DNA of 60,177 bases from contig CANPYO010000003.1 in NCBI GenBank assembly GCA_947588645.1, positions 1 through 60,177 on the forward strand, read 5' to 3'. Made by a program: the position numbers and the translations under genes. Below the pieces are notes generated by a model. It did not search any database and was not told where the DNA came from. It saw nothing but the letters and a program-made list of their open reading frames with translations. The DNA comes from an uncultured Akkermansia sp. GTDB lineage: Bacteria > Verrucomicrobiota > Verrucomicrobiia > Verrucomicrobiales > Akkermansiaceae. This document shows positions 39,884 through 60,177 of the stretch, piece by piece. Every line of letters begins with the position of its first letter. The first letter of the stretch is position 1.

Positions 39884-39910
39884 GCTCATCTCTTTTCAAA
39901 AGAGATGAGC
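39884..39910. promoter_or_regulatory. Perfect 27-bp palindrome, operator-like site 1
   Basis: Arms GCTCATCTCTTTT and AAAAGAGATGAGC around a single central C. Its core TCTCTTTT-n-AAAAGAGA recurs at 40046-40062 and, with one change, at 40184-40200. Sites 2 and 3 have a central G, so this copy is inverted relative to them. Lies between typA and the giant plus-strand gene. Confidence 0.6.
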
Positions 39911-40039: not shown

Positions 40040-40062
40040 TGGACATCTCTTTTGAAAAGAGA
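40040..40062 (+). promoter_or_regulatory. Operator-like site 2 with -35-like TGGACA
   Basis: TGGACA (40040-40045) directly followed by the 17-bp palindrome TCTCTTTTGAAAAGAGA (40046-40062). No -10-like hexamer follows (AACACG), so this copy looks like a site without a working promoter. Confidence 0.5.
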
Positions 40063-40177: not shown

Positions 40178-40206
40178 TGGACATCTGTTTTGAAAAGAGA
40201 TAAACT
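40178..40206 (+). promoter_or_regulatory. Promoter-like site of the giant surface protein with palindromic spacer
   Basis: TGGACA (40178-40183), a 17-bp near-palindrome TCTGTTTTGAAAAGAGA (40184-40200) and TAAACT (40201-40206). The palindrome fills the whole -35/-10 spacer, where a bound regulator would block or reshape the promoter. The ATG at 40298 lies 91 bp downstream, giving a leader of roughly 85 nt. Confidence 0.5.
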
Positions 40207-40270
40207 GTCAGTTACAGAAACGCACGAGCGCACGCGCGTGTAGGGCGCGCGTTCCCCGATTTTCACAACT

Positions 40271-40300
40271 CATCAACATTCATCATCATTCATCATCATG
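40271..40300 (+). repeat. Three tandem decamers ending in the start codon
   Basis: CATCAACATT, CATCATCATT and CATCATCATG follow each other without gaps; the last contains the ATG of the giant gene. No Shine-Dalgarno is present. Confidence 0.7.
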
Positions 40301-43300
40301 AAACTCCACTTACCCACTGGTTTACGCAAGGCTCTGTTGGCCTGCCTTGCAGCCTTAGCCGGACGCCGCGTTCTGCGACGCACCATGGCTTCCGGGACGG
40401 CTCTCTTGGGCGCCTTTTCCGTGCTGTGGAGCACGGCGCCCCCTGCCCAGGCGGACGATGAGCCCCCGCTGGCTGCCCCCGCAGGTGATGAACTCACGCT
40501 GGGGACTGCTCCGGAAACTGTGGAAAAGGAAGAAGTTGCCCTCGATGTTCCCATTTGGTTGGAAGAGGACGATGAGGATGAAGAACAAAACCTTCTCGCC
40601 GCCAACAGCGGGGAGGACATCATGACGATTTCTCAGGGGGATTCGGGAATCATGCCGATTGCCGCAGGCTCGACTACCAATGACGTGGATCCTAGGCACA
40701 AAGGGTTGGTTGATCCTGTCGATGAGGAGGGGGATGGAACGGTATCTTACAACGGGACGATCTATTCGTGGAACACGAGTGGCACTGGGAATGGAGGCAA
40801 TGCAAGAGATTCTCTGTACAAGGGCAATGGTTCTAATTTTGCATACGACACCTACACGTGGGCGGCGAATGGGGAGAACTCGGCAATGGTGGAAACTCTC
40901 GGGACAGCTGACCCTGCCCAGTATTTCATGACGAATGGTCATAACACCCTTCGCTTGACCGGCACGGGGAGTACCACTACTCTGACCTTTGGAAATTATA
41001 CGACAAATGCTGCTTCTGTGTATTTCGGTGGGCTTATCGTCGAGGAAGGGACTGAGCAATATGAGTTCAATATAGTCCGCGCTGATCGGCTCTATAATAA
41101 TTATGCCATGGAGTGGGTGGGAGGTGCAGAAGGGACACCATTCCAGGCTTTGATTCTTTCCAATACCAATTTTACCCTTGTGAGTGGAAAGACTCTAACC
41201 ATAACCGAAAATGCCAACTTACGCATAGGAAAGGGCAAGACGCTCAAGGTAACAGGCAGCACAGCTTTCACTGCCGGTAAGAATTTATCGCTTTACGCTG
41301 TTGGCGACGGGGAAGGAAATGCGGAGTTTTACCTCACTAATGTGACGGGAACCAATGCCTTGGGTACGCTCTCTGTGGGCACGTCCGTCACGTTCACAGT
41401 AGACGCCGGCACGCTGAGTGCGGAGACAGTGAATGTGGAAGGAAATTTGAGTTTGAACGGAGCAACGCTGAATGCGGGGACAGTGAATGCGGAAGGGAGT
41501 TTGACTCTGAACGGTACAACGCTGCACATCGGGGACGCTAAGAGCTCCAATCTCGGGACGCTCACGGTAGGAGCTTCCTCGACCCTGGAACTGGGGGGGC
41601 TCACTTCCATTCAGGACACCGTGCAGCTCACGAACCTTGCGGGCGTCAGCTCGGAAAACACACTCACGATCACCATATTGAACCTGTATGACATCCTGAA
41701 GGATGAAAACTTCTCGCAAGGAGCAGTCACGTGGAACATTTTTGGTGAAGCCTTGGGAGACTCAGCACTGCCCGGACTTTCTTTCACCTCGGACTGGGGC
41801 TACAGTCTTAATTGGGAAAATGGGGCGCTCCGGATAAGCGACACCTCTGCTGAAAGAACTTGGACGGAAGATTCGCATTCGGGGGAGACCCTCACATGGG
41901 CACAGGGGGAGAACGGCTGGGACGTTGTGGGCGACGCAAGTGGAAGTTTTAACAGTAACGACAGAGTCGCCTTCATCGGCAATACAGATGAAGCAAAAAG
42001 TATCCACATGCAGGGAGATCTGGCGGCGCGGACGGTGGATATAAGCGGTCCGGGCAGCTTTACCTTCTCCGCAGAGGCGGATCAAACCGCGAGTCTTGCC
42101 GTCGCCGCCATGACCGTGGGAGCGGATACCACCGTCGACACGGCGCTTACTGTAGCCAGCAGCTTATCATTGAGTGATGGAAAAACCTTGACTGTGGGAG
42201 GTGCTTTCCGGGCAGAAGGCGCGACGATTACCTTGAATAAGGAATCCAAACTCGTCCTTGCGGTGCAATCTACGGCTCCACAGTATGGCGCGTTTTCTTT
42301 GGTGTACGGCGACGACGAAGAAGGCGTCGGCAGCGTGGAGGTACAGGCGCAATCGAATCAGACCATTGACCTTGCTAGGGTTAAAATTGGGGAAAAGGTC
42401 GCTCTTCTCCTGAAGCACGTGGAGAGCAGCAGTACCAACTGGGCTTTTTACCAGAATATCGACAGCTTGGAGGAGAACGGGAAAACGGATGTCACCGTAG
42501 AGGGGAATCAAATTCTCCTGCAAGGAACCAACGTTGTCGCCAATATCAGCGAGACAGAGGTTGGTCTTTCGGACCGGCTTGTCATCAACAATGGAACGAC
42601 GACATTATCGGGAGATTTAACGCTCCATAGGGGGCTGCTGGACGTGCGAGGCGCAACACTGAACGTCTCGAATGGTACGATCGATGCCGGCAACGGAATC
42701 ATTTCCAATAATGCTAGCGCTAATGGAGGTCTCATCAACGCTCAACACGTCGAGACAACTGTGGGGAGTGGGCTCACCCGGACGTACTACGGCGCCATGG
42801 CGCTGAGCGGTAACTTGACCAAGAAAGGGCAAGGGTCGCAAGGGGTGTCGGGTGGGTCTGCCAACCAACTTTCCGTCGGAGGAAATGTGGCCATTGAGGA
42901 GGGCACGCTCGCATGGGGCAAGACGGGGCTGGACTCTTCCATCGCCGGGAAACTCGATATCCGGGAGCAAAGCACCTTCAAGCTCTCCGGCGGCGTTCTG
43001 ACGGTAAGCGGCGCTCTCGAGGCGTCGGCGGGCACCCTTGACATAGGCTCAGCTGCGGGTACGCTCAAGCTGCAGGGGGCTGGGGACCATACGCTGGGCA
43101 CGCTGAATCTGTCCGGCGTCAATGGAACGCTGGATTTGGCAGGTAAACTCACGGTGCAACGCCTCACGGGAAACAACCTCACCTTTGCCGGTCTCACTTT
43201 TGCAGAAAACGGACACCTCGTCCTCGGCGCGCCGATCGATGCGGCCATCAATCTCGGTACCATCACCATGAGCGGGAATGCGGAGATGACGCTGGGCGGG

Positions 43301-46300
43301 AGCTCATACGCGAACCTCCGCTTCACGGGCGTCTGGGCGGATGGCGCCGGCGGCACGCTCACCATTCACCTCTCCGAAGCTTTCCTGCGCAGCATTGCGG
43401 GAAATGGGAGCGGTTACCAGCTCTTCTCCTCTTCATGGGCAGACCATGTGGAATTCGCCACAGATGAAGACAGCTTATACGAGGAATACGTGCACCTGAG
43501 CTCAGATGGCATGTACGTTATCGTCGATTCTGTGTTAGCCACGGATCTCTACTGGGCCGGGGAAAATGACCTGGTGTGGGGAGAGGGCTCGGATGTTTGG
43601 GCGAATGCTGAGGGTGCGGAAGGCAGCACGGCTTGGGGCGGCGTGGGCTGCAATGCTCATCTGGGCTCAGCTTCGGGCACGCACGCAGTCAAACTTGCGG
43701 GGGATGTGCGTACGGCTAATTTGGAGATAAAAGGAGCAGATTCGTCTGTAACGTACAACTTTACATCGAATGATGGTACTCTTCATTCGCTCGAGGTAAC
43801 CGGTAATCTGACCGTCGGCGCTAACGCCCATGTATCATGGGATAACACGGCAAGTTTGTCCGTGGAGGATGATATCACTTTGGGAACCGGCAGCACACTG
43901 ACCTTTCAGTCCAACTCCCACTCAGTGACGGGCAACTTGGTCATCGGCGACAGCTCTCAAGTGTCGTTAAGTGACGGGGCAAGTTTATCCGTGGGTGGCG
44001 ATGTCACCTTGACAACCGGTAGCACGCTGGAGTTCCAGTCCAACTCTCACTCAGTGATGGGCAACTTGGTCATCGGCGACAGCTCTCGTGTGTCGTTAAG
44101 TGGCGGGACAAGTTTGTCCGTGGGCGGCAATGTCACCTTGGGAAGCAGTGGTACGTTGGGGCTCCAGTCCAGCTCCCACGCCATTGTCCACGGTTCTACC
44201 TCTGGTGGTTCTATTACGATTGCCGAGGAAGCCACCTTGGAGATGGATGGTGCAACAGCTTCTCTTGCCAGCCAGCTCTCCGGTTCGGGTACCCTGAAAT
44301 GGACCGGCGGTACGCTGACACTGGCTGAAAATTTCAGCGTTAGTGAAGGAAGCCCCAAGATTAACGTAGCCGGCGGCACGCTCGTCCTCGGCTATACGAG
44401 CACAGTGGACACGGATTATTTGTCCGGTACGGTGCTGGAGATGAATGGAAACCTATACTTCGCCGGAGCATCAGATGTTGCCAACGCCACCTATGTGGTA
44501 GGAGGACTGAAAGGAACAGGCTCAGATGTCAAATTGGGCGCGGGAGGAGAGACGGCTAAACTCATCATCGACTACAGCGGAGAAGAAGAGATCTCTTTTA
44601 CGGGGCAGTTCTCAGATCGAGCTAGTGGCGCCGGGAAAAAGGTCGACCTCGTGAAACAGGGATCGGGCACGCAGATCCTTACAACCGGTCATCTCGATAC
44701 AAAATCCACCACAGTGAAGGGTGGCACGCTGAAGTTCACAGATGCCGGTACGACATGGTCTGCCTTCACCGTTGAATCTGGCGGAACAGCCATCTTTGAG
44801 AAGGGGTGGACATTTAATGGCAGCCCGCTTACCGTGAACGGCGGTCAAATGACGGTAAACGGGAATGCGTCTATTGTCAGCGTCACCATCGAGGGGGGAG
44901 ACAGCAGCCTGGAAGTCAGAGGAAAGGCTACGGTTACCTCAAATATCACTATTGCTGGGGCGATGACCGTGTATGAAGCTCTTGTCGGAAATGGTTACAC
45001 CGGAGACATCGTTGTAAATGGCGGTACACTGAAGGTGGGGGAGGCGCATAAGGGTGAAGGCCAAACCGCTGGGCAGCAAAGCCTCAACGATGCGTGGGTG
45101 CACAGCCTCGCGGTTCATGGGGGCGAGGTCAATATTGCGGGCAGCCTGGTGGCGCAGCTTAACGGTAGCAATACGGCTATTACTGTGGATAACGGGGGGC
45201 AGTTAACCATTGGCGGGCAAATTGCCAATACGTATAACTACAACAGCAATACAGGCATCATAACCTTAGGCGGGGAGACGGGAGAATCGAACAAGGGCAC
45301 CTTGACTGTTGATGGTGAGGCGAGGATTGGAGGTCTTGTGCTCTATCAAGCAAGTCAAGCTACTTTTGGTGAACGGTTGATACATGTTGGAATTACCGTA
45401 AACGCGGGTAAGGTGGAGATAGGGACTACCAACAGAACAGTAGCAGATGATGGAGCCATTTCCTTGACGCCTCAGCAGGCGTGGAACGAGATGGCTTACG
45501 GATCCAGTGGTGCGACCACGCTGGTAGAAAATGGCGCAGAACTCGACATCTATGGCAGTGCGCTTTTCCATACAGGACACCATGTCACTGTCAAAGGAAA
45601 CATGACAGTATATGGCGCACTTATGGGAACATGGACCACTGCCGGGAACGTCGTTGTTGAGGGTGGGACGCTCACGGTCGGAGAGGGAGCCAAGGAAGCA
45701 AACGCGATAGACTCGACGGGAAGTAGAACCAGTAGTAGTGATGGTGGGCACAGGACTGGAAATACTGGGACAACAAATAATGCGTATGTAACGACCCTTG
45801 CTGTGCATGGGGGACATGTGCGGATATATGGGTCCTTGGTGGCGAGTGCAGGAGATAATGCCATCGTGGTGGATCAAAATGGAGAGCTCAATATACGTGG
45901 TGCTATTAACCACGATAGGGGTCGCGTAAGTGACCTGAAAATAGGCAGCGAGAATAGCCTCGGCACGGTCACCATGCAGGATCAGGGTGTAGCTAAGTTG
46001 AGAAACCTCACCCTGCAATACACGGGAAGCACGTTTACCACCTCAGGTGGGGTGGATGCGGAAAGCATATCGATCGGCGCCGGCACGTCAGCGACCTTGT
46101 CCGGGCAGTTGACGGTGGGAACTGGAATCACGGCGAACGGCAATCTGTCGATAGGCGGGGCGGCAACGGTGAATGGAGCGCAGACGTGGACGATCGGCGC
46201 AGGGGGCAAGCTGGAGATGACGACGGCAGGTGCTTCGCTGGCGATGGCGAATGGGGGAAGTCTGGAAATTGTTGTCAACACCGATGGTGGAGGTGGGAAG

Positions 46301-49300
46301 TTGAAACTTTCGGGCGGTGTCATGCAGAGCTTGGCGGCGGTGAGTGGCGTGAAATTGATGCTGGGTGATTTTGCGCCAACGCAAAGTTGGGACTACGCGC
46401 TCTTTGACATCAGTGCAGATGGATGGTCCACAGAGGCTGCCCTTTCCATGCTAACTCATCTTCTGGGAGCAGACTACACCGGACTTGAAAACAACCTCTC
46501 AGTCCTTGATAACGGAACGGTTCACTACGAAATGACCATAAAACCCAGAGAGCTCACATGGAATGGCTCTGGGGGAGGAGGTACATGGTCAAACGCAACG
46601 AATCCGTTCTATGCGGACAACAAGCCTTGGACGGTGGACGGAGCGGAAGCAGGCTTTTCCTCTTACGATAGCGCCTCCTTCGTCGGGGGACAGGGGGAGG
46701 GAGCCATTATCGTTGATGGTCACATCCTCGTCGGTTCGATGAACGTTTCCGGCGGGACAGCGTGGAGCTTCAGCGGGGACAATGTGGAACAGGACACGCT
46801 TTTGCTGCGCAGCGGACTGCATCTCACGCAGCTCGGCACACAGGTCAGCTTCGGTGGGAACTTGGCAGTGACGCTCGGGGAAATAACCTTCGCGGGTGGG
46901 GGAGGTGTCAGCGGCGAGTCGACGGTGACCTTTGAGGGTACGCATGTCACCCTCTCTTCCTCGCAGCCTGGCATCAGCGGCGCGGGCACGGTGACCTTGA
47001 GTGGTGCATCCACTCTCATGTGGGATATCACATCGGATCTTGTGATCGGCGATGGCAGCTCCGGCGAAACTGTACTTAAGATTGCCGGCAGCGGGGAGTT
47101 GAGCGGCGGATCTGTGGTCATTAAAAACGGAGCCGAGCTGTGGCTTGCGATGAGCGGCTCCGTTGAACGCAATATACACGGGGACGTGGAGGTGGAAGAG
47201 AGGGGTGCGTTTGTGGTAAGCGGCAGCGAGAATTATCTGAATTTGCCCGCCAACAACGACGCCAACTTTTCACTTAAAGTGCATGGTGGGGGGACCTTGG
47301 AATTACATGGTATTGGTACCACGTTCACGTATGGTGGCGGTGGAAAAGGGCTCTATTCCTTGCTAACGAGAAACGGTGCCGGCGAGGGTATAGATCATCT
47401 CGTGTTGAGCGGGGATACATGCCTGAAAACCGGCTCACAGTACGATGATGATTATGTCTCGAATCACATTCTAAAGTCGATCAGTGTTGAAGAAGGAGCA
47501 TCGCTGTATTTGTATGACGCTGGGAGGAGCATGCTCTCACACTCAGGACGCACACTGTATATCACCGGGGCGGGAGGAAGCGATCATGCCTATGCTTTGA
47601 GTTTGGAGAATAGTGCGCTTGTCAACTGGGACGTTTCTCTTGGAACGGAGGCAGAGAGTGCCGATGCAACGATTGAGGTGACTTCCGGAATTGCGACCAT
47701 AGCCGGTCAGTTTACGGTGGGAACAGCAACACTCACGAAGACCGGTGCAGGCGAGTTGAAATTGACCGGCGCCGTAATGGGTGAAGGCGGCACCATTGAC
47801 GTCAAAAATGGCTCTATCACATTGGCTTGTACCCAAGCCTCCGATACTCTGCAGAGCATCGACATTAACCTTTGCGGCGCGGCGGAGCCTGCCACGACGA
47901 CGGGTGCGCTGAAAGTGGATGAAAGTGCGAGCATAGGCGCGCTGTATGGCAGCGGCACGGTAACGATTGCGGCGGAGAAGACGCTCACGCTTTCGAATGG
48001 AAGCGGGGGCCATGAATTGACGGGCACGCTCTCCGGCTCCGGCACACTGCAGGTGCAGGGCGGCATCCTTACCCTGGGGACGGGCTTCAACGTCGGGGAA
48101 GGCGCTACACCGCAGATCGCGGTGGAGTCTGCCGATTCCGGCGCTTTGAATGTCAATGAAAGCGCTGCCATAGGCGCGTTGTATGGCAGCGGCACGGTAA
48201 CGATTGCGGGGGAGAAGACGCTCACGCTTTCGAATGGAAGCGGCAGCCATGAATTGGCAGGCACGCTCTCCGGCTCCGGCACACTGCAGGTGCAGGGCGG
48301 CACCCTCACCCTGGGAACGGGCTTCAACGTCGGGGACGGCGCTGCACCGCAGATCACGGTGGACAACGGTGCGACCCTCGTCCTCGGCTACACGAGTTCG
48401 ACAAGTACCAGTTACTGGTCCAACACGGTGCTGGAGGTGAACGGTAAGTTGCACCTCGGGAATGCAGCAGCAGAGGAGGTGGACAACAACGCCACCTACG
48501 TGGTGAAAGGGTTGAATGGCAGTGGTTCCGAGGTGAGGCTTGCCGAGCAAAGTGGTAATGCCAAGTTGATTATCGACACCGCGGAGGGAGAGTATTCCTT
48601 CTCAGGAGCGCTCAACGACAATCCAATCAGTGGGGTTAACCACAAATTTGACCTCGTCAAGCGTGGCAGGGGCACCCAGATCTTCACAACAAATCAGTTC
48701 GATACGAAATCTACCACAGTGGAGGAAGGCACGCTGAAGTTCACAACTGCCGGTACGACGTGGTCTGCTTTCACCGTTGAATCCGGCGGAACAGCCACCT
48801 TCGAGAATGGGTGGACATTTAATGGCAGTCCACTTACCGTGAATGGCGGCATAGTGGATGTGACCACTGGCAATCTAAGCGTGGGTTCTGAGCTGACAAT
48901 GACCGGCGGAAGTATTACAACCAGCGGGACCGGGACGGTTTCTGCGAGTACCTTGACGCAATCTGCCGGAAGCATTAACGTGGCGGGTGGTCTCAATGTT
49001 ACGGCGAACACGGGGGTTTACACGATGGCCGGCGGCAATGCTGAAATAGGCGGTAAATTGGGTCTTAATGATACCGGAAACGATGAAAAATTAGTCATCT
49101 CCGGCAACGGGTCTGTGACAGCGCAGCAAGTTAAAGGAACGGGAGACGGTCATGCCGGTCGTATCACAGTGGGTACCAAGACCGATGACGGAGTTTACTC
49201 AACGGGTTCTCTGACAGTGACCGGAACCGATGGCGATGTTCTGAAGAGCAAAGGGATTTTGGTGCAGGGAAGCGGATCATTGGTGACGGCAGCAGGCTCC

Positions 49301-52300: not shown

Positions 52301-55300
52301 CTTGGTAGGAGTGAGGGGAACACTACAAACCAAGTTGCGGGGTTAATGGTGATGGGGACTTCCGGGGCGCAGACCTCCACATTGACAGTGTATGGAAATC
52401 TTGCAGTACAAGGGTATTCACACACAGGTAACAGCAACGTTGCGTTAGAGAACGGTATGCAGCTTGGCTGGGGAGCTACGGGTACCATCACAGGTGCGCT
52501 GACGGTTGGGAACGCGCAATATTCAAGCGGTCTTGCCATAGGTGGCGCGGAGGAGGGTAACACGGGCACGCTGACGGTGACGGGTCTGTTGACGGCGCAT
52601 CACCTCGCGGTGGCTGGTAACGGAAGCCAACTTACGACGAACGGCGGGTTGACGGTGACAACAAGTGCTGTGATTGAAAGCGGCGCATCCTTGATTGTGG
52701 CGAACGGCGGCGTTTCTTCAGGCGCTTTCACCGTGGGCGGTTCCCTCGCCTTGACGGGGAGCATCGCTACCGATGTGCAATTTATTGGGCAAACCGGCAG
52801 CACCATCACGCTGACAGATGCCGGAACTGCGTTGACGAATTCGCAATTCTCGGGCACGATCGCGAAATTGGTGCTGGGTGGTTCTCAGAGTAACGCACCT
52901 TCAACGGTGTTCAAGATGTCCGGTACTGTGACGCAATCATCTCACGTCTTTGATTCTATTGAAGTGGGCGCGGGGGCGCGACTCTCTCTTGGAAGTACAG
53001 CCTACTTGGACAAACTCATTTTGGCAGGCGGAGAGCTCTACAACGATCACAGCAGCCCATCAACGGGAAACGTGCAGGAAATTGAACTGAAGGAGGGTAC
53101 AACGTCCTCATACAATTCGAACAACTACGTACTATCCCTCAAACTGGCGCATAAGTTGACCGGGAAAGGGTCTCTGCAGTTCATTGCGGGTGACTCTGGA
53201 CTTGAATTTTCTGCAGGATTTGACGGAACAGAGTTTGAAGGTCTGTTGGAGATGAACGTTGCTAGCGGGAGCTACGGAAATCTCGCGGTGGATAATGATG
53301 TTGACGTGGTGTTTGCCGATGGTGGCAGTCTGAAAGTCACCAGCGCAGGTGCTGTGAGTTTGGGAGCCAGCTCTTCTCTGACAATTTCCGATGCTTTCAA
53401 TGTACGGGGAAGACTACTTCTTGGGGAGGGAGCTACCCTTACTCTGGATGGAACAGGAAATGGTGCCGTAGAAGGGAATACTTTGAATAACAATGTTGGT
53501 GGTCTTGGTGGTTCCGGCGGTAATCTGGTGCTAATGGGCAGCCAACTAACTGTGAGTAAAACAAGGGATGACTTCGGCGGTCTCGCTTCGTTGGATTTGC
53601 AGACCAAAGGAGATGTCACTTCCTCCTTCACGCTGACGACGGGAGACTTGACCGTGAAGGATTTGAAGGGAGCGGGGAGTGTGACGTTGAGCGGCGAGAA
53701 TGCCAAGCTGACGCTGGCGTACGGCGGAGACGAGGCGGACGGAGGAAGGTATGAGGGAACGATCAGCGCGGCGGAGCTGGCTTATGCCGGAACGGGCAGC
53801 GACAAGAAGTTCACGCTGACGCAGGGCTTTGCCGGCGCGAAGCTGAGCCTGAGCGGTGGCACCCTGGTGTTGCAGGGATCAGTCGGTGCAGCGGGAGAGA
53901 ATACGTGGGACATTAGCGGAGAAACACAGCTGGATTTGAGCGCGGAAGGACTCAGGCTCTCCGGTGAAAGTATCGCGTTGACGGTCGATGTGAGGGAGGA
54001 CAACACGCTGGGGGCGCTCAAGCTGAGCGAGGCGATGTTTACTTCTTTGCAGGAGCTGGCGAGTGGCCATAATCTGACGCTCACTCTGACGGGAACAGCG
54101 TCCGGGCAGAAGTACAGGCTGATTAATACAACGGAGCTGGGAGACAGCGTCACGCAAGAGACTCTGCAGAGCTTCCTGGACAGCATCCTGCCGAGTCATG
54201 ATGCGGGGTGGCGAGGAAGTGTGACCATTGATGGTGAGGGCTACCTAGCGGTGGCGACGGGGCACGCCCTGACGTGGGATGCCGCCGGCAGCCCGAGTGG
54301 GACGTGGAAGACCTTTGCAGAGAACGAGAGCGACAAGCCGTGGGATGATGGCAATGCCGGAGGTGCGGAAAGCGGGTTCTATGATGGAGACAGCGTGGTG
54401 TTCAATGACAGCGAGACCACAGAGCACACTATCACGGTGAGCGGCACGGTGCAGCCGAGCACGATGGAGGTGCAGGCGGGGACGTGGACGTTCAACAGCA
54501 CCGAAACCGCCGCCATTACTTCCGAAAACGAAGCCCTGACGGTGTCGGGTTCAAACGCTAACGTGACCTTCTCGGGCTCCGTGGGCATCAACTTTGGCGG
54601 TGGGGTGACGGTGTCGGGGCAGAACGCCACTCTGACTTGGGCGAGCTCCGGGAACATGCAATCTGCCGGTGCTCTGACCTTGTCGGGAAAGGACGCGGAG
54701 ATGCTCCTCACCGGCGCGGGACAAGTCCGATTCAGCGGCTTGCACCTGGAGAATGGCGCGAAGCTGTACGTCTCGGGCGGCGGCGTCAAGAATTTCGGGG
54801 GGAGTACATCCAGCCCGGGCATCCACTTGGGCGCAGACACGGAACTGGTGATTCAGGATGGCGGTGATACGTATGGAACGGGCGATGGATGGATCAAAGA
54901 TGGTGTGAACTTTGCGACGGGCGAGGGAAGCATTGTGCTGGAGGGAGTGACGACGACTAACGCTGGAGACCACATCGGTCTTCTGTGGGCGTTTATGGGC
55001 GCAGGAGATTCGGCAACCGGAGATCAGATCGGGGCGCTGAAGCTGCGAAAAACTGAGGAGGGGAGAGGCACGGTGCTGACGATGAGCGGTGAGATGGGTG
55101 GCAGTGGCAACGGGCACGCGCTAGGTAATTTCAAGCATATTTATGTGGAAGAGGGCAGCACGCTGATCATCTCCTCCGCAGCGTTGGGGACAAAGCGCCA
55201 CACGGGCAATGTGCTGCATGTGGCTGGGACCGGTGCAACGGGACAGGATGCGGCGCTGATTTTGAATAATGGCAGCCTCGATTGGGACATCACGGCCGAT

Positions 55301-58300
55301 GACAACGCCACCATCAAGACAACGGCTGGCGTAACATACGGAAATCACACCTTGGATCTGAATGGGCACGCGCTGACGTTGAACTTGGGGGCGGCGTTGA
55401 CATTGAACACCGGCACTACGTTGACCGGCATCGCTGATGGAGGCAACACACTGGTGAAGATGGGGACAGGTCAGTTGACCATGGGCGCCGGTGCGATTTC
55501 AGTGGGAGAGGGAGTCACCGGGACGTTGGACGTGCAGCAGGGAGCGCTGTGGATCCAGCACAACGATCTCACGGGGTGGGGTGTGAAATTGGCGGACGAA
55601 ACAATATTCCATGTCGGTCATCTCGACGGGACCAATGGTGGTGAGGTCAAGGTGGGATTCCTGGAGGGCGGGAGTGGGATCGTTCGCTCATACACGTCTA
55701 CCTCCTACCTCGCCACACTTGTCCTGACAGGGGGCGAGGGCGTGGAGAAGACTTCCTTGGCGGTGTTTAAGAACTCTAACGATAATGCCTCGAATACGAG
55801 CTATCTTAATTTGAAGAAGGAAAATTCAGGTACTCAGACTTTCTCGGCGGGCGCCTTCGGTAACTTGAATACAGTTACCGTGACGGGCGGCGAGTTGACG
55901 TTCACCGGGACGGGAGCAGTTACGGATGGGGTCACGTTGAGTGGGACGGGCAAGCTGACGTTGAGTGGCGGCACGAACTTCGAGGTCGGCAATTTTGTGA
56001 ACATTGGAGGAGCCATCAGCTTGGAGGGTACGTCGTCGGAGCTGGTGGTGGATGGTTATGTGCAGGCAACCGGCTTGGAAGGCTCAGGTAAGGGCGTGAC
56101 GGGCTCGGGCACGTTGAAGTTGACCGGGGACGGCGGAAGTTTCTCGGGTAGAATCGGCTCGAACTTGGAGTACGCAGGGACAGGGACGCTGACCTTGAAC
56201 GGGCAGGTGACGGGCGCAGTGGCAGTGGACAGCACGAGTGGCACGCTGGTTCTGAATGGCGCGAACAACACCATCGGTGCGCTGAGCGGAGGCGGCGAGT
56301 TGGATGTGCAGGGTGCGACGCAACTGACGGCGGGTGGCGACATCGGCACATTGAAGGTCGGTGCGGCGATTGATTTGCGGGAGAGTTTGACCGTCACCAC
56401 GATGGGTGGCGGTGCGGGAAGCATTGTGGTGGCGGCGGACAAGACGCTCACCGTGTACGGCTGGACGGCGGAGAATGCGACATTGACCGGGCTCACGCTG
56501 AACGGCGGGGCGACCTTGGATTTGAAGGCGATGACGAGCGGCACGGCAGACATCGGAACCCTCACGGGGGCGGAGTTGTCTGAGGAGAAGAAGGCGACCG
56601 TGAAGATTGGCAACGTGTTCGCCGAGAATAACAACCTCAAGCTCAAGATCGGCTCGTTGAGCGGATTCGACAGCGTCAAGCTCCAGTTGGATGTTAGCGC
56701 GCTGGAATTGTCTGAGGACGGCGACAAGTACGAGCTCTTCAGCGATTTCAGGGAAGATCTTTTGGGCAGCATTGAGCTCACCGGACTGACCGGGTTTGTT
56801 CCGGACGGTCATCACGTCCTGCGGTTGACGGCTGCGGGCGTCCTGGAGTACAACGTGAGTGACGGAACGCTTGTGTGGGACAAGAACGAGACGGAGGATG
56901 GCACGTGGGAGGCGAGCGACAGCAAGGATTGGAAGGGCGGCTTCACCTTCGCGAATGGAGAGGACAGCGCGAGTTTCGGAGAGGAAGGTCTGACGGATAG
57001 CTCGGCGACCGTGACTCTGAGCGGCGAGGTGAAAGCCGTGAACGTGCAAATTGCGTCTGGGGGCTACACCTTCGAGATGAACGCAGAGGACGGCTCGCCT
57101 GACAGCTTGACCGTGAGCAGTAAGCTGGAGTTGGGTGCGGCCACGCACACAACCTTCAAGGCGACCGTGAACGTGAGCGGTGCGGAGAGCAAGCTGACCG
57201 GAAGCGGAGACTTGACCCTCGGCGAGAACGGCAGTCTCACGGTCGATACGGCGCTCACGAGAGACGGAGACAGTTCTTACACAGGCACCATCACGCTGGA
57301 CGGCGGTGCGCTGACCGCGAAGGGCGCAGTGAACGTGGCTCTGGGCAAGAACGGTGGTACGCTGCACGACAGCAGCGCAGCATCCGGTGAGGGCTTGACC
57401 GCGACTCTGAACGATGCGGAGGGTGCAGATAGCGTGGGCGTGTTGACTGCGGAGGGAACGCTGACACTGTCGGGCACGACGACGGGAACTGTGTCCGTGG
57501 CGGGCGGTGCGACCGTGACGGGCGATGCGACGAGCGGCGTGACGGTGGCGGGCATCACCGGAGGCGCGGTGGGGGATGACGCTACAGCGACGACGCTGGC
57601 CGGGAAGATCATCGTCAGTGATGGAGTGGTTGAGGGAACCGAGCCAACTGAACACCAATACGCGGGCAAGCTCCGCACGGATCTGGAGCTGACGGTCAGC
57701 CAGGGCAAGCAGAGCCTCACGGCTGCTGACCAGGGCATGGCGAAAGCCACGGTAGAAGGCGGCGGCGATCTGACCCTGGCGAGCGGCACGGTGGTGTCGG
57801 GTGAGGTGACCGTGAACGACTCCGGCAAACTCACATGGAGCGGTACCCTGACAGCGGGGGTGCTGAAGGGCGACGCGAATCTTGGCGGAGAAGGGTTGAG
57901 TTTGGAACTGACCGGCGACGGCAGCAGTTACAGCGGCAACTTGAATTTGGATGCCTTGACCGCGAGCAGCGGCACGCACGAGCTGGCGGGTGGCGTGGAT
58001 TTGGACACCTTGACGATTGAGAATGGCGCCACCCTCGTGCTCAACGACACGACAGGGGAGACTGCTGCCATCGGCACGCTGGATCTGAAGAGCGCCGGCA
58101 CGCTGACCATCGGCGGCGACGAGGCTCACGCTGGAGTCAGCTTCACTCTGGAGGACGCGGAGCTGGCCGGCGGCACGATCAATGGCTACGGCACGCTCAA
58201 CCTGACGGGCACGGGCACGATCGGCAGTGCAATTGCCGGCAGTCTGACGATTACCTCCGACGGTACGCAGACCCTCACGGGCAACGTGAACGCCGGAAGC

Positions 58301-60177
58301 ATCACGGTGGCCAGCGGGACGACTCTGGAACTCGGTGCAAGCGAAGGTTCCGAAGAGCAGACCATCACCCTGACCGGAGGCTTGATTTTGGAGGACGGCG
58401 CCAAGGTGACCATCAACGCCGGTGGTATGAAGAGCTTCGGAGGGAGTTGGCATAGTCAAGGTAACACCTCAGGGGGCATCACACTCGGCGAGGGCAGTGA
58501 GCTGGTCATCACCTCTGCTGCCGCTACCGCGGGTGGATGGAAAGGTGATAATAACGGCGGAAATTGGGGAGACTGCTTCGTGCATGGTACGGGGGGCAGC
58601 TTGGTGTTGATGGGGGTGACAAATGCGGCAGGTCTCCTCAGCGACCATCTTGTGGAAGTGTCAAGTGCGACAGCTCTGACTAATCACGTGATTGGTACTT
58701 TGGTGCTGGGCACTGATGAGAGTGGTACTGGAAGCACATGGACTATCAGCGCCGAAACTATGAGATCCATTTGGAGCGCTTTTGGTGCTGTGCGGGTAAA
58801 GAGTGGGAGTCTGTTGCAATTAGGATTCAACGTAGGTACTACTGCCGCTGCACCCACTATTGAGTTGGAGGGTAGCGTGGCGGGCGACGCCCTGCGGCAT
58901 TCGTTGCTCGTTAGCGTTGCCGGTACATTTACGCACCTCGGAGAGTTCAAGCTCATCGGAGAGCAGGAACAGGTGGCGATTGAGGTGGCACAGGCGAATG
59001 GAATCTTGGACCTGCAAGGAAAACTTACCACGGTCGATGGCGACAACGTCAGCCACACGCTGGTGAAGCAGGGCGCGGGTACGTTGAAATTGAGTGGCAA
59101 CTTCGCGACGGGAGAAGGTCAGAGTGGCACGCTGGATGTGACGGCGGGTACACTGACGCTGGCGTACACGGATACCACGGCGTTGGCTGACTACGGCATC
59201 ACGTTGGGCGATACCAGCGCGGAGGGTAGCACAGTCGTGTTGAATTTGGGCGACGCAGCGTACAAGGTGAAGAGCCTGGCTGACGATGAAGGTGTGACTG
59301 CCGGCGGACAGATCACGGGCACGGGTACGCTGGAGTTACTGACGGCTGATGAGAAGAAGAGCACGTTGGCGAGTGTGGGTGCGAACGTGAGCCTGATCAT
59401 GAGCGGCGAGGGCACGCAGAGCATCACGGGCGCGTTCAATGGTGCGAACATTACGGTGAATGAGGGCGAGCTCGTTCTGGGATCTGCAGACAATCAGGTG
59501 AACGCGACGGGGAATGTGACGCTGACGAGAGGCACGCTTGCTTTCGGGAACACGGCGAACACCGTGGCTGGAACGATGAGTGGCACGGGCAACTTGCAGC
59601 TGACCTTCGGTACGGAGGGAGAGCAAGCGGGCAAGGCGACGCTGAGCGTGGGCGCGATGAGTGGCAGCTTCAGTCTGCAGGATGCGGCGACGGGTAAGGA
59701 GCTGTCCGGTGATACCAACAAGCTGTATCTCACCATCACGGCGGGAGCGGAGAACGAGGAGGGAGAGGGAGCCGACTACACCGGTACGCTGACGCTGAAC
59801 AGCCTGACGATGAGCGGCAGTGGCACGCAGCGACTCAGCGGCGATGACAACAGCCTTGGAGTGTTGACTATGGATGGCACCGGCACCCTGGCTTTGGATG
59901 GCACGACGAGCGCGACAAGCGTCACTGGCGAGGGCACATTGACGGGTAGCTCGACATTGACCTTGACGGGTGAAGGCAGCAACTTCGGCGGCAGCGTGAC
60001 GGCGACGGAAGGCCAGCATTTGTCTCTGAGCATCGCGACGGAGGCGGTGGAGCACAGCCACACCTTCAGTGGTACGAATCTCAGCTTCGGGTCGGTGTCC
60101 ATCGATCGCGGCACGCTGAAGTTCACCGGAACCGGGCTGGATATCACCGGATCCCTGACCGTCGGCAATAACCAGTA
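40298..60177 (+). CDS. Giant secreted surface protein with autotransporter-type beta-strand repeats (partial, open at 3' end)
   Basis: One frame stays open from the ATG at 40298 to the window end: at least 6,626 codons. I re-read the frame at the start, near 41.8, 43.5, 46.5, 50.0, 54.3 and 56.9 kb and at the last codons, and it is the same throughout. An extended signal peptide (about 58 aa: MKLHLPTGLRKALLACLAAL, a second hydrophobic stretch, cleavage probably AQA/DD) precedes an acidic stretch (EEDDEDEEQN). The rest is Gly/Thr/Ser/Leu-rich, low in Cys, and made of short units such as GSGTLTLTG, NGGTLTVGG and LTLGSG, like PATR/TIGR02601 autotransporter-associated repeats. At least six Trp-rich modules (first TGG codons at 41861, 43553, 46559, 50006, 54275 and 56876) divide it into macro-segments. 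Probably an adhesin or surface-layer-like passenger; the C-terminal translocator or anchor lies outside the window. Confidence 0.85.
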   Translation, partial: MKLHLPTGLRKALLACLAALAGRRVLRRTMASGTALLGAFSVLWSTAPPAQADDEPPLAAPAGDELTLGTAPETVEKEEVALDVPIWLEEDDEDEEQNLLAANSGEDIMTISQGDSGIMPIAAGSTTNDVDPRHKGLVDPVDEEGDGTVSYNGTIYSWNTSGTGNGGNARDSLYKGNGSNFAYDTYTWAANGENSAMVETLGTADPAQYFMTNGHNTLRLTGTGSTTTLTFGNYTTNAASVYFGGLIVEEGTEQYEFNIVRADRLYNNYAMEWVGGAEGTPFQALILSNTNFTLVSGKTLTITENANLRIGKGKTLKVTGSTAFTAGKNLSLYAVGDGEGNAEFYLTNVTGTNALGTLSVGTSVTFTVDAGTLSAETVNVEGNLSLNGATLNAGTVNAEGSLTLNGTTLHIGDAKSSNLGTLTVGASSTLELGGLTSIQDTVQLTNLAGVSSENTLTITILNLYDILKDENFSQGAVTWNIFGEALGDSALPGLSFTSDWGYSLNWENGALRISDTSAERTWTEDSHSGETLTWAQGENGWDVVGDASGSFNSNDRVAFIGNTDEAKSIHMQGDLAARTVDISGPGSFTFSAEADQTASLAVAAMTVGADTTVDTALTVASSLSLSDGKTLTVGGAFRAEGATITLNKESKLVLAVQSTAPQYGAFSLVYGDDEEGVGSVEVQAQSNQTIDLARVKIGEKVALLLKHVESSSTNWAFYQNIDSLEENGKTDVTVEGNQILLQGTNVVANISETEVGLSDRLVINNGTTTLSGDLTLHRGLLDVRGATLNVSNGTIDAGNGIISNNASANGGLINAQHVETTVGSGLTRTYYGAMALSGNLTKKGQGSQGVSGGSANQLSVGGNVAIEEGTLAWGKTGLDSSIAGKLDIREQSTFKLSGGVLTVSGALEASAGTLDIGSAAGTLKLQGAGDHTLGTLNLSGVNGTLDLAGKLTVQRLTGNNLTFAGLTFAENGHLVLGAPIDAAINLGTITMSGNAEMTLGGSSYANLRFTGVWADGAGGTLTIHLSEAFLRSIAGNGSGYQLFSSSWADHVEFATDEDSLYEEYVHLSSDGMYVIVDSVLATDLYWAGENDLVWGEGSDVWANAEGAEGSTAWGGVGCNAHLGSASGTHAVKLAGDVRTANLEIKGADSSVTYNFTSNDGTLHSLEVTGNLTVGANAHVSWDNTASLSVEDDITLGTGSTLTFQSNSHSVTGNLVIGDSSQVSLSDGASLSVGGDVTLTTGSTLEFQSNSHSVMGNLVIGDSSRVSLSGGTSLSVGGNVTLGSSGTLGLQSSSHAIVHGSTSGGSITIAEEATLEMDGATASLASQLSGSGTLKWTGGTLTLAENFSVSEGSPKINVAGGTLVLGYTSTVDTDYLSGTVLEMNGNLYFAGASDVANATYVVGGLKGTGSDVKLGAGGETAKLIIDYSGEEEISFTGQFSDRASGAGKKVDLVKQGSGTQILTTGHLDTKSTTVKGGTLKFTDAGTTWSAFTVESGGTAIFEKGWTFNGSPLTVNGGQMTVNGNASIVSVTIEGGDSSLEVRGKATVTSNITIAGAMTVYEALVGNGYTGDIVVNGGTLKVGEAHKGEGQTAGQQSLNDAWVHSLAVHGGEVNIAGSLVAQLNGSNTAITVDNGGQLTIGGQIANTYNYNSNTGIITLGGETGESNKGTLTVDGEARIGGLVLYQASQATFGERLIHVGITVNAGKVEIGTTNRTVADDGAISLTPQQAWNEMAYGSSGATTLVENGAELDIYGSALFHTGHHVTVKGNMTVYGALMGTWTTAGNVVVEGGTLTVGEGAKEANAIDSTGSRTSSSDGGHRTGNTGTTNNAYVTTLAVHGGHVRIYGSLVASAGDNAIVVDQNGELNIRGAINHDRGRVSDLKIGSENSLGTVTMQDQGVAKLRNLTLQYTGSTFTTSGGVDAESISIGAGTSATLSGQLTVGTGITANGNLSIGGAATVNGAQTWTIGAGGKLEMTTAGASLAMANGGSLEIVVNTDGGGGKLKLSGGVMQSLAAVSGVKLMLGDFAPTQSWDYALFDISADGWSTEAALSMLTHLLGADYTGLENNLSVLDNGTVHYEMTIKPRELTWNGSGGGGTWSNATNPFYADNKPWTVDGAEAGFSSYDSASFVGGQGEGAIIVDGHILVGSMNVSGGTAWSFSGDNVEQDTLLLRSGLHLTQLGTQVSFGGNLAVTLGEITFAGGGGVSGESTVTFEGTHVTLSSSQPGISGAGTVTLSGASTLMWDITSDLVIGDGSSGETVLKIAGSGELSGGSVVIKNGAELWLAMSGSVERNIHGDVEVEERGAFVVSGSENYLNLPANNDANFSLKVHGGGTLELHGIGTTFTYGGGGKGLYSLLTRNGAGEGIDHLVLSGDTCLKTGSQYDDDYVSNHILKSISVEEGASLYLYDAGRSMLSHSGRTLYITGAGGSDHAYALSLENSALVNWDVSLGTEAESADATIEVTSGIATIAGQFTVGTATLTKTGAGELKLTGAVMGEGGTIDVKNGSITLACTQASDTLQSIDINLCGAAEPATTTGALKVDESASIGALYGSGTVTIAAEKTLTLSNGSGGHELTGTLSGSGTLQVQGGILTLGTGFNVGEGATPQIAVESADSGALNVNESAAIGALYGSGTVTIAGEKTLTLSNGSGSHELAGTLSGSGTLQVQGGTLTLGTGFNVGDGAAPQITVDNGATLVLGYTSSTSTSYWSNTVLEVNGKLHLGNAAAEEVDNNATYVVKGLNGSGSEVRLAEQSGNAKLIIDTAEGEYSFSGALNDNPISGVNHKFDLVKRGRGTQIFTTNQFDTKSTTVEEGTLKFTTAGTTWSAFTVESGGTATFENGWTFNGSPLTVNGGIVDVTTGNLSVGSELTMTGGSITTSGTGTVSASTLTQSAGSINVAGGLNVTANTGVYTMAGGNAEIGGKLGLNDTGNDEKLVISGNGSVTAQQVKGTGDGHAGRITVGTKTDDGVYSTGSLTVTGTDGDVLKSKGILVQGSGSLVTAAGSANFYNTCSDGTNSLHVDAGRVEITGGVTITGGHVLVENAGSLTVEGLMSMSGKNLSVNNGTVALSGGLTAASVTLTQGSLTLGGDLNVANGVTVSGGTMKLGTANVAENLAISLSGDAVLEMKEGSLTIGADKTLTLTIDVASAAEGVKLRLTNDVMSALLSLASQINFSITGAHIGANWDYQLFDVTDLSDMWSNVVAESFLNGILHPAEGASLTVGADGTVHYALYAASRELTWTGSTNVWNSSATNWQAGGQTKQTFSAHDSVTFDNSATTKDVTVSGDLTPGDIHVTGNSTYTFTGQDAADSSASIEASGNLYVDAGSSASFSNLTSFSVVGGEITGSLTLESTVTGTKSLGHMTVESDGKVTIMGGDVTNWSGTTLSGGGTVLLNAGNTVTVDRDHNLFAALFAAGDANIQRDDAHSGIGRFEIASGTTLSLNNKGDIGKGLSFIRNLAVGRGAVLQLADNVFDPNDSSYTNAGTLVLSGGEGEGAAVLENTRQGGSNNGVWVKWNIELEDDATVKNSGSGVFNITGSATLDAHGHTLTLEGQQKTFWFGEQSGSSSFGAAEESTGAISLNSGVTLNFKTTNGASFSGYDMRLSENSTLQMKNNATFKALSGAGTVGFDNNVTMTLADESTVAYTGTLASGHNGTVAVSAGAKFLLGSGASVGNTLNILGTLSTEAGAGDSLVEATVNVLNVGDGGQVTLGDHSTLTVTTLGGVESQYGSITGSGTLKLTGDGGSFAGAIGSNLEYAGSGTTAFNYTGAFSGTTLTVTSGSLTLGSGFGFGTEAAPAVVVNDGTLTLDYEDGQTGGLLTMGGGTLSVGTTATNGYTFAGLSGTSGAFSGSGKLVLNVGDGTQEFEGVIQNYSLSLEKSGDGTQTVKGTASAGSQVKELTVSGGVLEFTGSLTESNAGGTYGVTVNNGGGLSVGGGLLTNRGVQVTGTGSSLSVTGNLTLNTWADLTVTNGGSVTAQGGLGGNQNGAGQVAVGGHDESGNSIGTLILGRSEGNTTNQVAGLMVMGTSGAQTSTLTVYGNLAVQGYSHTGNSNVALENGMQLGWGATGTITGALTVGNAQYSSGLAIGGAEEGNTGTLTVTGLLTAHHLAVAGNGSQLTTNGGLTVTTSAVIESGASLIVANGGVSSGAFTVGGSLALTGSIATDVQFIGQTGSTITLTDAGTALTNSQFSGTIAKLVLGGSQSNAPSTVFKMSGTVTQSSHVFDSIEVGAGARLSLGSTAYLDKLILAGGELYNDHSSPSTGNVQEIELKEGTTSSYNSNNYVLSLKLAHKLTGKGSLQFIAGDSGLEFSAGFDGTEFEGLLEMNVASGSYGNLAVDNDVDVVFADGGSLKVTSAGAVSLGASSSLTISDAFNVRGRLLLGEGATLTLDGTGNGAVEGNTLNNNVGGLGGSGGNLVLMGSQLTVSKTRDDFGGLASLDLQTKGDVTSSFTLTTGDLTVKDLKGAGSVTLSGENAKLTLAYGGDEADGGRYEGTISAAELAYAGTGSDKKFTLTQGFAGAKLSLSGGTLVLQGSVGAAGENTWDISGETQLDLSAEGLRLSGESIALTVDVREDNTLGALKLSEAMFTSLQELASGHNLTLTLTGTASGQKYRLINTTELGDSVTQETLQSFLDSILPSHDAGWRGSVTIDGEGYLAVATGHALTWDAAGSPSGTWKTFAENESDKPWDDGNAGGAESGFYDGDSVVFNDSETTEHTITVSGTVQPSTMEVQAGTWTFNSTETAAITSENEALTVSGSNANVTFSGSVGINFGGGVTVSGQNATLTWASSGNMQSAGALTLSGKDAEMLLTGAGQVRFSGLHLENGAKLYVSGGGVKNFGGSTSSPGIHLGADTELVIQDGGDTYGTGDGWIKDGVNFATGEGSIVLEGVTTTNAGDHIGLLWAFMGAGDSATGDQIGALKLRKTEEGRGTVLTMSGEMGGSGNGHALGNFKHIYVEEGSTLIISSAALGTKRHTGNVLHVAGTGATGQDAALILNNGSLDWDITADDNATIKTTAGVTYGNHTLDLNGHALTLNLGAALTLNTGTTLTGIADGGNTLVKMGTGQLTMGAGAISVGEGVTGTLDVQQGALWIQHNDLTGWGVKLADETIFHVGHLDGTNGGEVKVGFLEGGSGIVRSYTSTSYLATLVLTGGEGVEKTSLAVFKNSNDNASNTSYLNLKKENSGTQTFSAGAFGNLNTVTVTGGELTFTGTGAVTDGVTLSGTGKLTLSGGTNFEVGNFVNIGGAISLEGTSSELVVDGYVQATGLEGSGKGVTGSGTLKLTGDGGSFSGRIGSNLEYAGTGTLTLNGQVTGAVAVDSTSGTLVLNGANNTIGALSGGGELDVQGATQLTAGGDIGTLKVGAAIDLRESLTVTTMGGGAGSIVVAADKTLTVYGWTAENATLTGLTLNGGATLDLKAMTSGTADIGTLTGAELSEEKKATVKIGNVFAENNNLKLKIGSLSGFDSVKLQLDVSALELSEDGDKYELFSDFREDLLGSIELTGLTGFVPDGHHVLRLTAAGVLEYNVSDGTLVWDKNETEDGTWEASDSKDWKGGFTFANGEDSASFGEEGLTDSSATVTLSGEVKAVNVQIASGGYTFEMNAEDGSPDSLTVSSKLELGAATHTTFKATVNVSGAESKLTGSGDLTLGENGSLTVDTALTRDGDSSYTGTITLDGGALTAKGAVNVALGKNGGTLHDSSAASGEGLTATLNDAEGADSVGVLTAEGTLTLSGTTTGTVSVAGGATVTGDATSGVTVAGITGGAVGDDATATTLAGKIIVSDGVVEGTEPTEHQYAGKLRTDLELTVSQGKQSLTAADQGMAKATVEGGGDLTLASGTVVSGEVTVNDSGKLTWSGTLTAGVLKGDANLGGEGLSLELTGDGSSYSGNLNLDALTASSGTHELAGGVDLDTLTIENGATLVLNDTTGETAAIGTLDLKSAGTLTIGGDEAHAGVSFTLEDAELAGGTINGYGTLNLTGTGTIGSAIAGSLTITSDGTQTLTGNVNAGSITVASGTTLELGASEGSEEQTITLTGGLILEDGAKVTINAGGMKSFGGSWHSQGNTSGGITLGEGSELVITSAAATAGGWKGDNNGGNWGDCFVHGTGGSLVLMGVTNAAGLLSDHLVEVSSATALTNHVIGTLVLGTDESGTGSTWTISAETMRSIWSAFGAVRVKSGSLLQLGFNVGTTAAAPTIELEGSVAGDALRHSLLVSVAGTFTHLGEFKLIGEQEQVAIEVAQANGILDLQGKLTTVDGDNVSHTLVKQGAGTLKLSGNFATGEGQSGTLDVTAGTLTLAYTDTTALADYGITLGDTSAEGSTVVLNLGDAAYKVKSLADDEGVTAGGQITGTGTLELLTADEKKSTLASVGANVSLIMSGEGTQSITGAFNGANITVNEGELVLGSADNQVNATGNVTLTRGTLAFGNTANTVAGTMSGTGNLQLTFGTEGEQAGKATLSVGAMSGSFSLQDAATGKELSGDTNKLYLTITAGAENEEGEGADYTGTLTLNSLTMSGSGTQRLSGDDNSLGVLTMDGTGTLALDGTTSATSVTGEGTLTGSSTLTLTGEGSNFGGSVTATEGQHLSLSIATEAVEHSHTFSGTNLSFGSVSIDRGTLKFTGTGLDITGSLTVGNNQ
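41411..41518 (+). repeat. Tandem 54-bp repeat (18 aa, two copies) in the giant gene
   Basis: Units at 41411-41464 and 41465-41518 encode TLSAETVNVEGNLSLNGA and TLNAGTVNAEGSLTLNGT. Confidence 0.8.
43802..44188 (+). repeat. Tandem 129-bp repeat (43 aa, three copies) in the giant gene
   Basis: Units at 43802-43930, 43931-44059 and 44060-44188. Each starts GNLxxG and ends with a stretch such as GSTLxFQSNSHSV. Copies 2 and 3 are the most similar, including long identical DNA runs, so that duplication is the younger one. Confidence 0.85.
44381..44844 (+). repeat. Long-range duplicated block, copy A
   Basis: Encodes LVLGYTS, a variable centre, then VDLVKQGSGTQIL, KSTTVKGGTLKF and TWSAFTVESGGTA, then TFNGSPLTVNGG. 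The same order occurs at 48377-48849. The 3' third is close to identical at DNA level. Confidence 0.8.
47903..48376 (+). repeat. Tandem 237-bp duplication (79 aa, two copies) in the giant gene
   Basis: Units at 47903-48139 and 48140-48376. Both encode IGALYGSGTVTIA, then EKTLTLSNGSG, LSGSGTLQVQGG and LTLGTGFNVG with few differences. Confidence 0.85.
48377..48849 (+). repeat. Long-range duplicated block, copy B
   Basis: Partner of 44381-44844, directly after the 79-aa tandem duplication. Encodes LVLGYTSSTSTSYWS, then FDLVKRGRGTQIF, KSTTVEEGTLKF, TWSAFTVESGGTA and TFNGSPLTVNGG. Confidence 0.8.

Follow-up and report, generated by a model that had tools for sequence, protein, structure and literature searches.

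Secretion by type Va autotransporters is established, and a review of these proteins gives 280–3,333 aa as the range of their most length-diverse adhesin group (PMC9289746). Other giant proteins have been described in Omnitrophota (39,678 aa), Lawsonia (LIC091, 8,746 aa) and Apilactobacillus (Giant1-5) (PMC10066038, PMC3463550, PMC12863079). In Akkermansia, invertons (group 138; motif CGGATT..AATCCG) are known, and one group lies near autotransporter genes (PMC13343947, PMC11892184). Giant Akkermansia autotransporters were untreated in the literature searched, which mostly excluded subscription journals, and neither the passenger size nor the switch layout presented here is described in it.

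We analysed a window of 60,177 bp, which is the entire contig C3 of an Akkermansia draft genome (2.49 Mb, 158 contigs, 95.9% complete) whose near relatives are rabbit-gut MAGs. The features of the window are summarized in Table 1. We consider it highly probable that the frame entered at the ATG at 40298 forms the 5' portion of a giant gene for a classical type Va autotransporter, a gene that encodes an adhesin with a solenoid passenger, reaches its barrel through contigs C87 and C136 and is phase-variable.

Table 1. Features of the giant gene and its surroundings (window positions unless a contig is named).
Feature	Position	Strand	Remark
BipA/TypA GTPase gene	37740..39590	-	divergent neighbour of the giant gene, synteny marker
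Distal 17-bp palindromic box	39889..39905	-	TCTCTTTTGAAAAGAGA on the minus strand
Middle 17-bp box	40046..40062	+	157 bp from the distal box
Promoter-like TGGACA-17-TAAACT	40178..40206	+	spacer is exactly the proximal box
Proximal 17-bp box	40184..40200	+	138 bp from the middle box
N-terminal 6,626 codons of the giant autotransporter gene	40298..60175	+	ATG start, 3' open, gene cut by the contig end
Bipartite leader, 52 residues	40298..40453	+	MKLHLPTGLRKALLACLAALAGRRVLRRTMASGTALLGAFSVLWSTAPPAQA; common to giant paralogues and relatives
Junction unit 1	41663..42112	+	starts at aa 456, end approximate
Junction unit 2	43349..43798	+	starts at aa 1018, end approximate
Junction unit 3	46361..46810	+	starts at aa 2022, end approximate
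In-frame tandem duplication	47932..48363	+	period 237 bp, 93% matches
AlphaFold2-modelled segment (aa 2960-3560)	49175..50977	+	beta-solenoid and junction, mean pLDDT 89.6
Junction unit 4	49808..50257	+	starts at aa 3171, end approximate
Junction unit 5	54065..54514	+	starts at aa 4590, end approximate
Junction unit 6	56678..57127	+	starts at aa 5461, end approximate
Assembly-graph branch, 77 bp	60101..60177	+	same sequence as the start of C87 and the end of reverse-complemented C78
Box pairs near small genes in G000	C42:9918-10102, C52:14727-14910, C55:3896-4080, C11:7646-7829

The initial annotation had claimed a frame of at least 6,626 codons, open to the last codon of the window, and the ORF determined here agrees with it: 0 stops were found up to the contig end, and from stop to stop the frame starts at 40244. 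Because the window is the whole contig, the frame is truncated by the contig end. The probability of 6,626 open codons is approximately (61/64)^6626 = 1e-138 under uniform codons, so that chance cannot explain the frame. The periods of its tandem repeats (54, 129, 237, and 18 bp) are all whole codons. When homologous stretches were aligned with one relative and one paralogue, pN/pS was below 1 and dN/dS was 0.2–0.5, values which indicate that purifying selection is acting on these stretches. The part of the protein within the window has a mass of 665.7 kDa, with 16% Gly, 12.5% Thr, a pI of 4.4, and seven Cys. The giant ORF belongs to a genuine gene, whose product is an enormous surface protein of a gut Akkermansia. 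No clear Shine-Dalgarno sequence precedes its start at 40275-40298; the start codon is abutted there by CATCATTCATCATCATTCATCATCATG, and the paralogue C50 is much alike.

Proteins of this size had been called rare, which is wrong for the source organism. Frames of the giant composition comprise at least 103,800 codons (~311 kb), or about 12.5% of the assembly, and the genome contains 18 PF03797 barrels and five N-termini of the giant type (on C3, C104, C50, C1, and C20). One paralogue is complete at 6,969 aa, with the same kind of leader, a barrel and a stop. A further chain connected by 77-bp links leads from C23 (9,477 aa) or C37 (7,294 aa) through C83 (3,598 aa) to C59 (5,202 aa, with barrel and stop), and amounts to ~16,000 to 18,200 residues, still without an N-terminus. 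Relatives in other genomes were recovered by a search with the C-terminal alignment; the N-terminal 700 aa gave 0 matches in the related-locus search. Complete relatives on single contigs, counted from MKLHLP to the stop, measure 9,997, 13,121, 15,246, 16,862, and 21,150 aa, and another of 19,078 aa continues past its contig end. A one-contig genome of 3.5 Mb has barrel frames of 7,223, 7,840, and 8,552 aa. Of the 76 genus members, 75 have barrels of the C-terminal alignment, for the most part on frames of 1,000–4,000 aa.

The position beside BipA is occupied by a giant ORF in G055 as well (6,182 aa before the contig ends), and no giant gene lies beside BipA in G049 (BipA 97% identical) or G023 (95%). 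These results indicate turnover of the gene between closely related species, with a recent gain or loss. Two side observations concern the wider family. L109, from a record titled Oscillospiraceae (Lapin-018 bin19), is an Akkermansia-type autotransporter with 61% identity, and its contig is probably mis-binned. In G000, two smaller autotransporters (C49 and C12) are 98.9% identical over their last 356 residues, which suggests gene conversion of the barrel.

The protein begins with a putative export leader, which is hydrophobic, ends in AQA and is conserved in the family. Downstream of it, a junction unit of ~140 aa with the pattern y.LF ... L.W.G....W ... F...D.V.F ... V.V.G ... Y.F.G was detected by an HMM in 6 copies spaced 562–1,419 aa apart, and in 22 (the longest relative), 19, 15, 14, and 10 copies in the large relatives. 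The number of junction units rises with protein size, and length thus follows module number. The passenger is a beta-solenoid built of modules of ~0.5–1.4 kaa, each of which is opened by a junction unit. Structural comparison aligned residues 1–262 of the modelled segment to right-handed beta-helices, with Hbp as a neighbour (Z 12.5, 3.2 Å over 174) followed by the passengers Ag43b (Z 11.7), UpaB and TibA (both 11.5); pectate and alginate lyases were also among the neighbours. For the one 601-aa segment examined, the model thus predicts the beta-helical passenger of type Va. Turns of the type 'VVGGSY / IAGGFW' are repeated in a further domain, which precedes the C-terminal region in L009 (aa 2179–3098). 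C87, C1, and the majority of complete relatives have this domain, but C51 and C59 yielded none; a model of it from L107 was beta-rich (pLDDT 79.9). Foldseek returned no match at E < 0.001 for either model, and the C-terminal alignment profile had 0 matches to PDB sequences. A search with PF12951/TIGR02601 had been proposed; it gave no Pfam match, and TIGR02601 scored 18.0 bits, below its cut-off of 19.85. The description of the product as a secreted, repeat-built, autotransporter-like protein of over 600 kDa is nevertheless supported.

The leader would take the protein into export, and family membership implies display as a rod on the outer membrane. This rod, a very long beta-solenoid, could extend for hundreds of nanometres if the solenoid is continuous. 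Beta-helices use ~20–25 residues and 0.48 nm per coil. On this scale, 11,760 residues, the minimal length derived below, would correspond to ~0.25 micrometre, and 21,150 residues to ~0.45. Most likely, the rod serves as a surface filament or adhesin in contact with mucus, plant fibre or other cells. Adhesion is the most likely use, being the commonest role of beta-helical autotransporters (PMC9289746). Pfam detected no domain, either enzymatic or binding, in the 6,626-aa ORF or in C87, which would also suit a filament that is a shield, an antibody or phage decoy, or an enzyme scaffold rather than an adhesin. The large repertoires and phase switching fit antigenic variation too, and nothing decisive speaks against such a role. 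Given the commonness of adhesion, we regard this alternative as possible but rather unlikely, and we retain the adhesin as the preferred reading.

Three 17-bp boxes lie upstream of the giant gene, and none was obtained from shuffled sequence. Boxes of opposite orientation are 157 and 295 bp apart, so that inverted repeats flank a segment bearing a candidate promoter (a consensus-like match), as in an inverton. Similar arrays occur upstream of many giant genes in the clade, and they were found in two states. Of the 11 arrays in the state (-,+,+), 10 had TGGACA beside the proximal box and 0 beside the distal one. Of the four independent arrays in the state (-,-,+), 3 had TGGACA beside the distal box and 0 beside the proximal one. 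The association of position with state gave a Fisher p of ~0.004, calculated by hand on paralogues that are not fully independent. The box spacings swap between the states, from 157/138 to 138/158. When the DNA between the boxes was aligned across states, that of G055 C2 against G023 C18 scored 140.5 in reverse complement and 19 forward, that of C20 against G049 C43 gave 122 and 13, and that of C24 against C18 within the genome G023 gave 142 and 13; shuffles gave at most 17. Both orientations, with the inner DNA reversed, thus occur between paralogues and relatives in consensus assemblies. The window array carries TGGACA at the proximal box, and its inner segment is reversed relative to that of the syntenic counterpart in G055 (27 against 17), the arrangement expected if only the stretch between boxes 1 and 2 had inverted.

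The two states, with their reversed inner DNA and displaced TGGACA, point to a phase switch, and expression of the giant gene is probably phase-variable. Site-specific inversion between boxes would bring the -35-like TGGACA to the fixed -10-like TAAACT, or remove it. We give roughly even chances to the full scheme, in which the palindromic recombination site is itself the 17-bp promoter spacer, inversion swaps the -35 element while the -10 element stays fixed, and the living cell thereby picks which giants it displays, a divergent pair on G023 C53 being served alternately. On that contig (6900-7700, L203), one three-box array is common to two divergent leaders of the giant type, so that an inversion would serve one gene or the other. 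If the scheme is true, the cell chooses members of a repertoire of 7,000–21,000-aa autotransporters for display. Alternatively, the boxes might be operators for a DNA-binding regulator, and the orientations seen between genomes might be old rearrangements without any switch; perfect palindromes upstream of many genes and a single orientation per locus in each consensus assembly would agree with this. We find that reading unlikely, because the reversal is exact between the boxes with the flanking TGGACA moving along, because orientation differs among paralogues of one genome, as in the G023 comparison, and because Akkermansia is known for many invertons, including one group near autotransporter genes (PMC11892184, PMC13343947). 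The published Akkermansia motif was considered as the identity of the box and rejected, since its sequence is different.

As to their distribution, the boxes were found in 18 of the 76 genus members, including every genome that matches the giants' leader; G060 and G066, each a one-contig genome, had none with up to 2 mismatches allowed. In G000, the same box also occurs in pairs 167–168 bp apart near other small genes, and the box family is therefore not limited to autotransporters. Rfam had no match in the window.

The initial annotation had left the C-terminal anchor open and had proposed extending the contig rightwards. The final 77 bp of C3 recur in the same frame at the start of C87, whose 3,356 codons are all open. 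C87 has two predecessors in the graph, C3 and C78, for which reason we infer, rather than read, the path through it. In the complete 9,997-aa relative (G008 C17), the C3 tail maps to residues 4805–5249 and C87 to residues 5224–6857; this adjacent and colinear arrangement indicates that the order C3-C87 is natural. On four complete relatives, 385–414 aa separate the end of C87 from the start of C136. C136, which was assigned as the end of the gene by homology and elimination, terminates in a PF03797 autotransporter barrel (105.7 bits). Most likely, the gene runs from C3 through C87 and an unassembled gap of ~1.2 kb to C136. The minimal path is 6,626 + 3,330 + 400 + 1,401, or near 11,760 aa, and the full length would be ~11,700 aa or more, as the route through C78 is longer and contigs below ~2.5 kb are missing from the assembly. 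The far ends of C87 and C78 gave no further overlap link, only a 78% paralogue in C1.

The anchor is thereby answered at the level of the family, with a PF03797 barrel at the end of six complete relatives and of C136, while the stop of the window gene itself lies beyond the contig. The giant protein is most likely anchored by its own outer-membrane barrel, and the C-terminal conserved region together with this barrel would hold it in the outer membrane. Since the C-terminus is beyond the contig end, another route (PEP-CTERM/exosortase, type IX or a lipid anchor) with a mere likeness to autotransporters can be imagined; this is very improbable in view of the family barrels and of C136, in which the PEP-CTERM or type IX signal sought was absent from Pfam and NCBIfam scans.

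Mis-assembly had also been raised as a concern. Within the giant ORF, 0 exact repeats of at least 60 bp were found. Among the fetched contigs compared, the ORF has 77-mers in common only with C87 and C78, all of them in 59477-60177, and codons 1 to ~6,393 are consequently free of ambiguous joins; the concern persists for the final ~700 bp of the window, which could be swapped with C78. The contig links found all had a length of exactly 77 bp, as a k=77 assembly graph would give. A 51-bp exact repeat (two overlapping 50-mers) was observed outside the ORF, at window positions 1689 and 20666, 19 kb apart. That the great length is an artefact, with repeats from different genes or strains falsely joined into one frame, is very improbable: the 158-contig draft does have k=77 branches inside giant genes, and C3 has an exact stretch near 59477 and its last 77 bp in common with C78, but the ORF lacks long exact repeats, other genomes carry complete genes of 9,997–21,150 aa on single contigs, barrel frames reach 8,552 aa in the one-contig 3.5-Mb genome, and the C3/C87 junction is colinear in a complete relative.

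These results show type Va autotransporter genes as long as ~21,000 codons in a host-associated commensal, and a 2.5-Mb genome that devotes ~1/8 of its length to giant frames. They open to testing how a barrel would export a megadalton chain and how repeat modules would set the length of a surface fibre. The three-box array would be a compact phase-switch design in a genus studied for gut health.

Compared with the giants of Omnitrophota, Lawsonia, and Apilactobacillus, which are likewise huge predicted surface proteins with proposed roles in attachment (PMC10066038, PMC3463550, PMC12863079), the present protein is unrelated in architecture, judging by their descriptions; the Omnitrophota giant has many transmembrane helices and no reported autotransporter barrel (PMC10066038). 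The Gly/Thr/Ser-rich strand repeats resemble those of PF12951/TIGR02601 proteins, although the window ORF falls below the cut-offs of both models. Like the known Akkermansia invertons (PMC11892184, PMC13343947), the arrays consist of short inverted repeats in front of genes for surface proteins, autotransporters among them, but here the repeat is TCTCTTTTGAAAAGAGA, is present in three copies and itself forms the promoter spacer. Also among the closest systems is the classical type Va autotransporter (AIDA-I/Ag43/Hbp-like, PF03797), with which the family shares the leader, the beta-helical passenger and, in relatives, the single C-terminal barrel, whereas the Akkermansia passenger is several times longer, with complete genes of up to 21,150 aa against 280–3,333 aa (PMC9289746).
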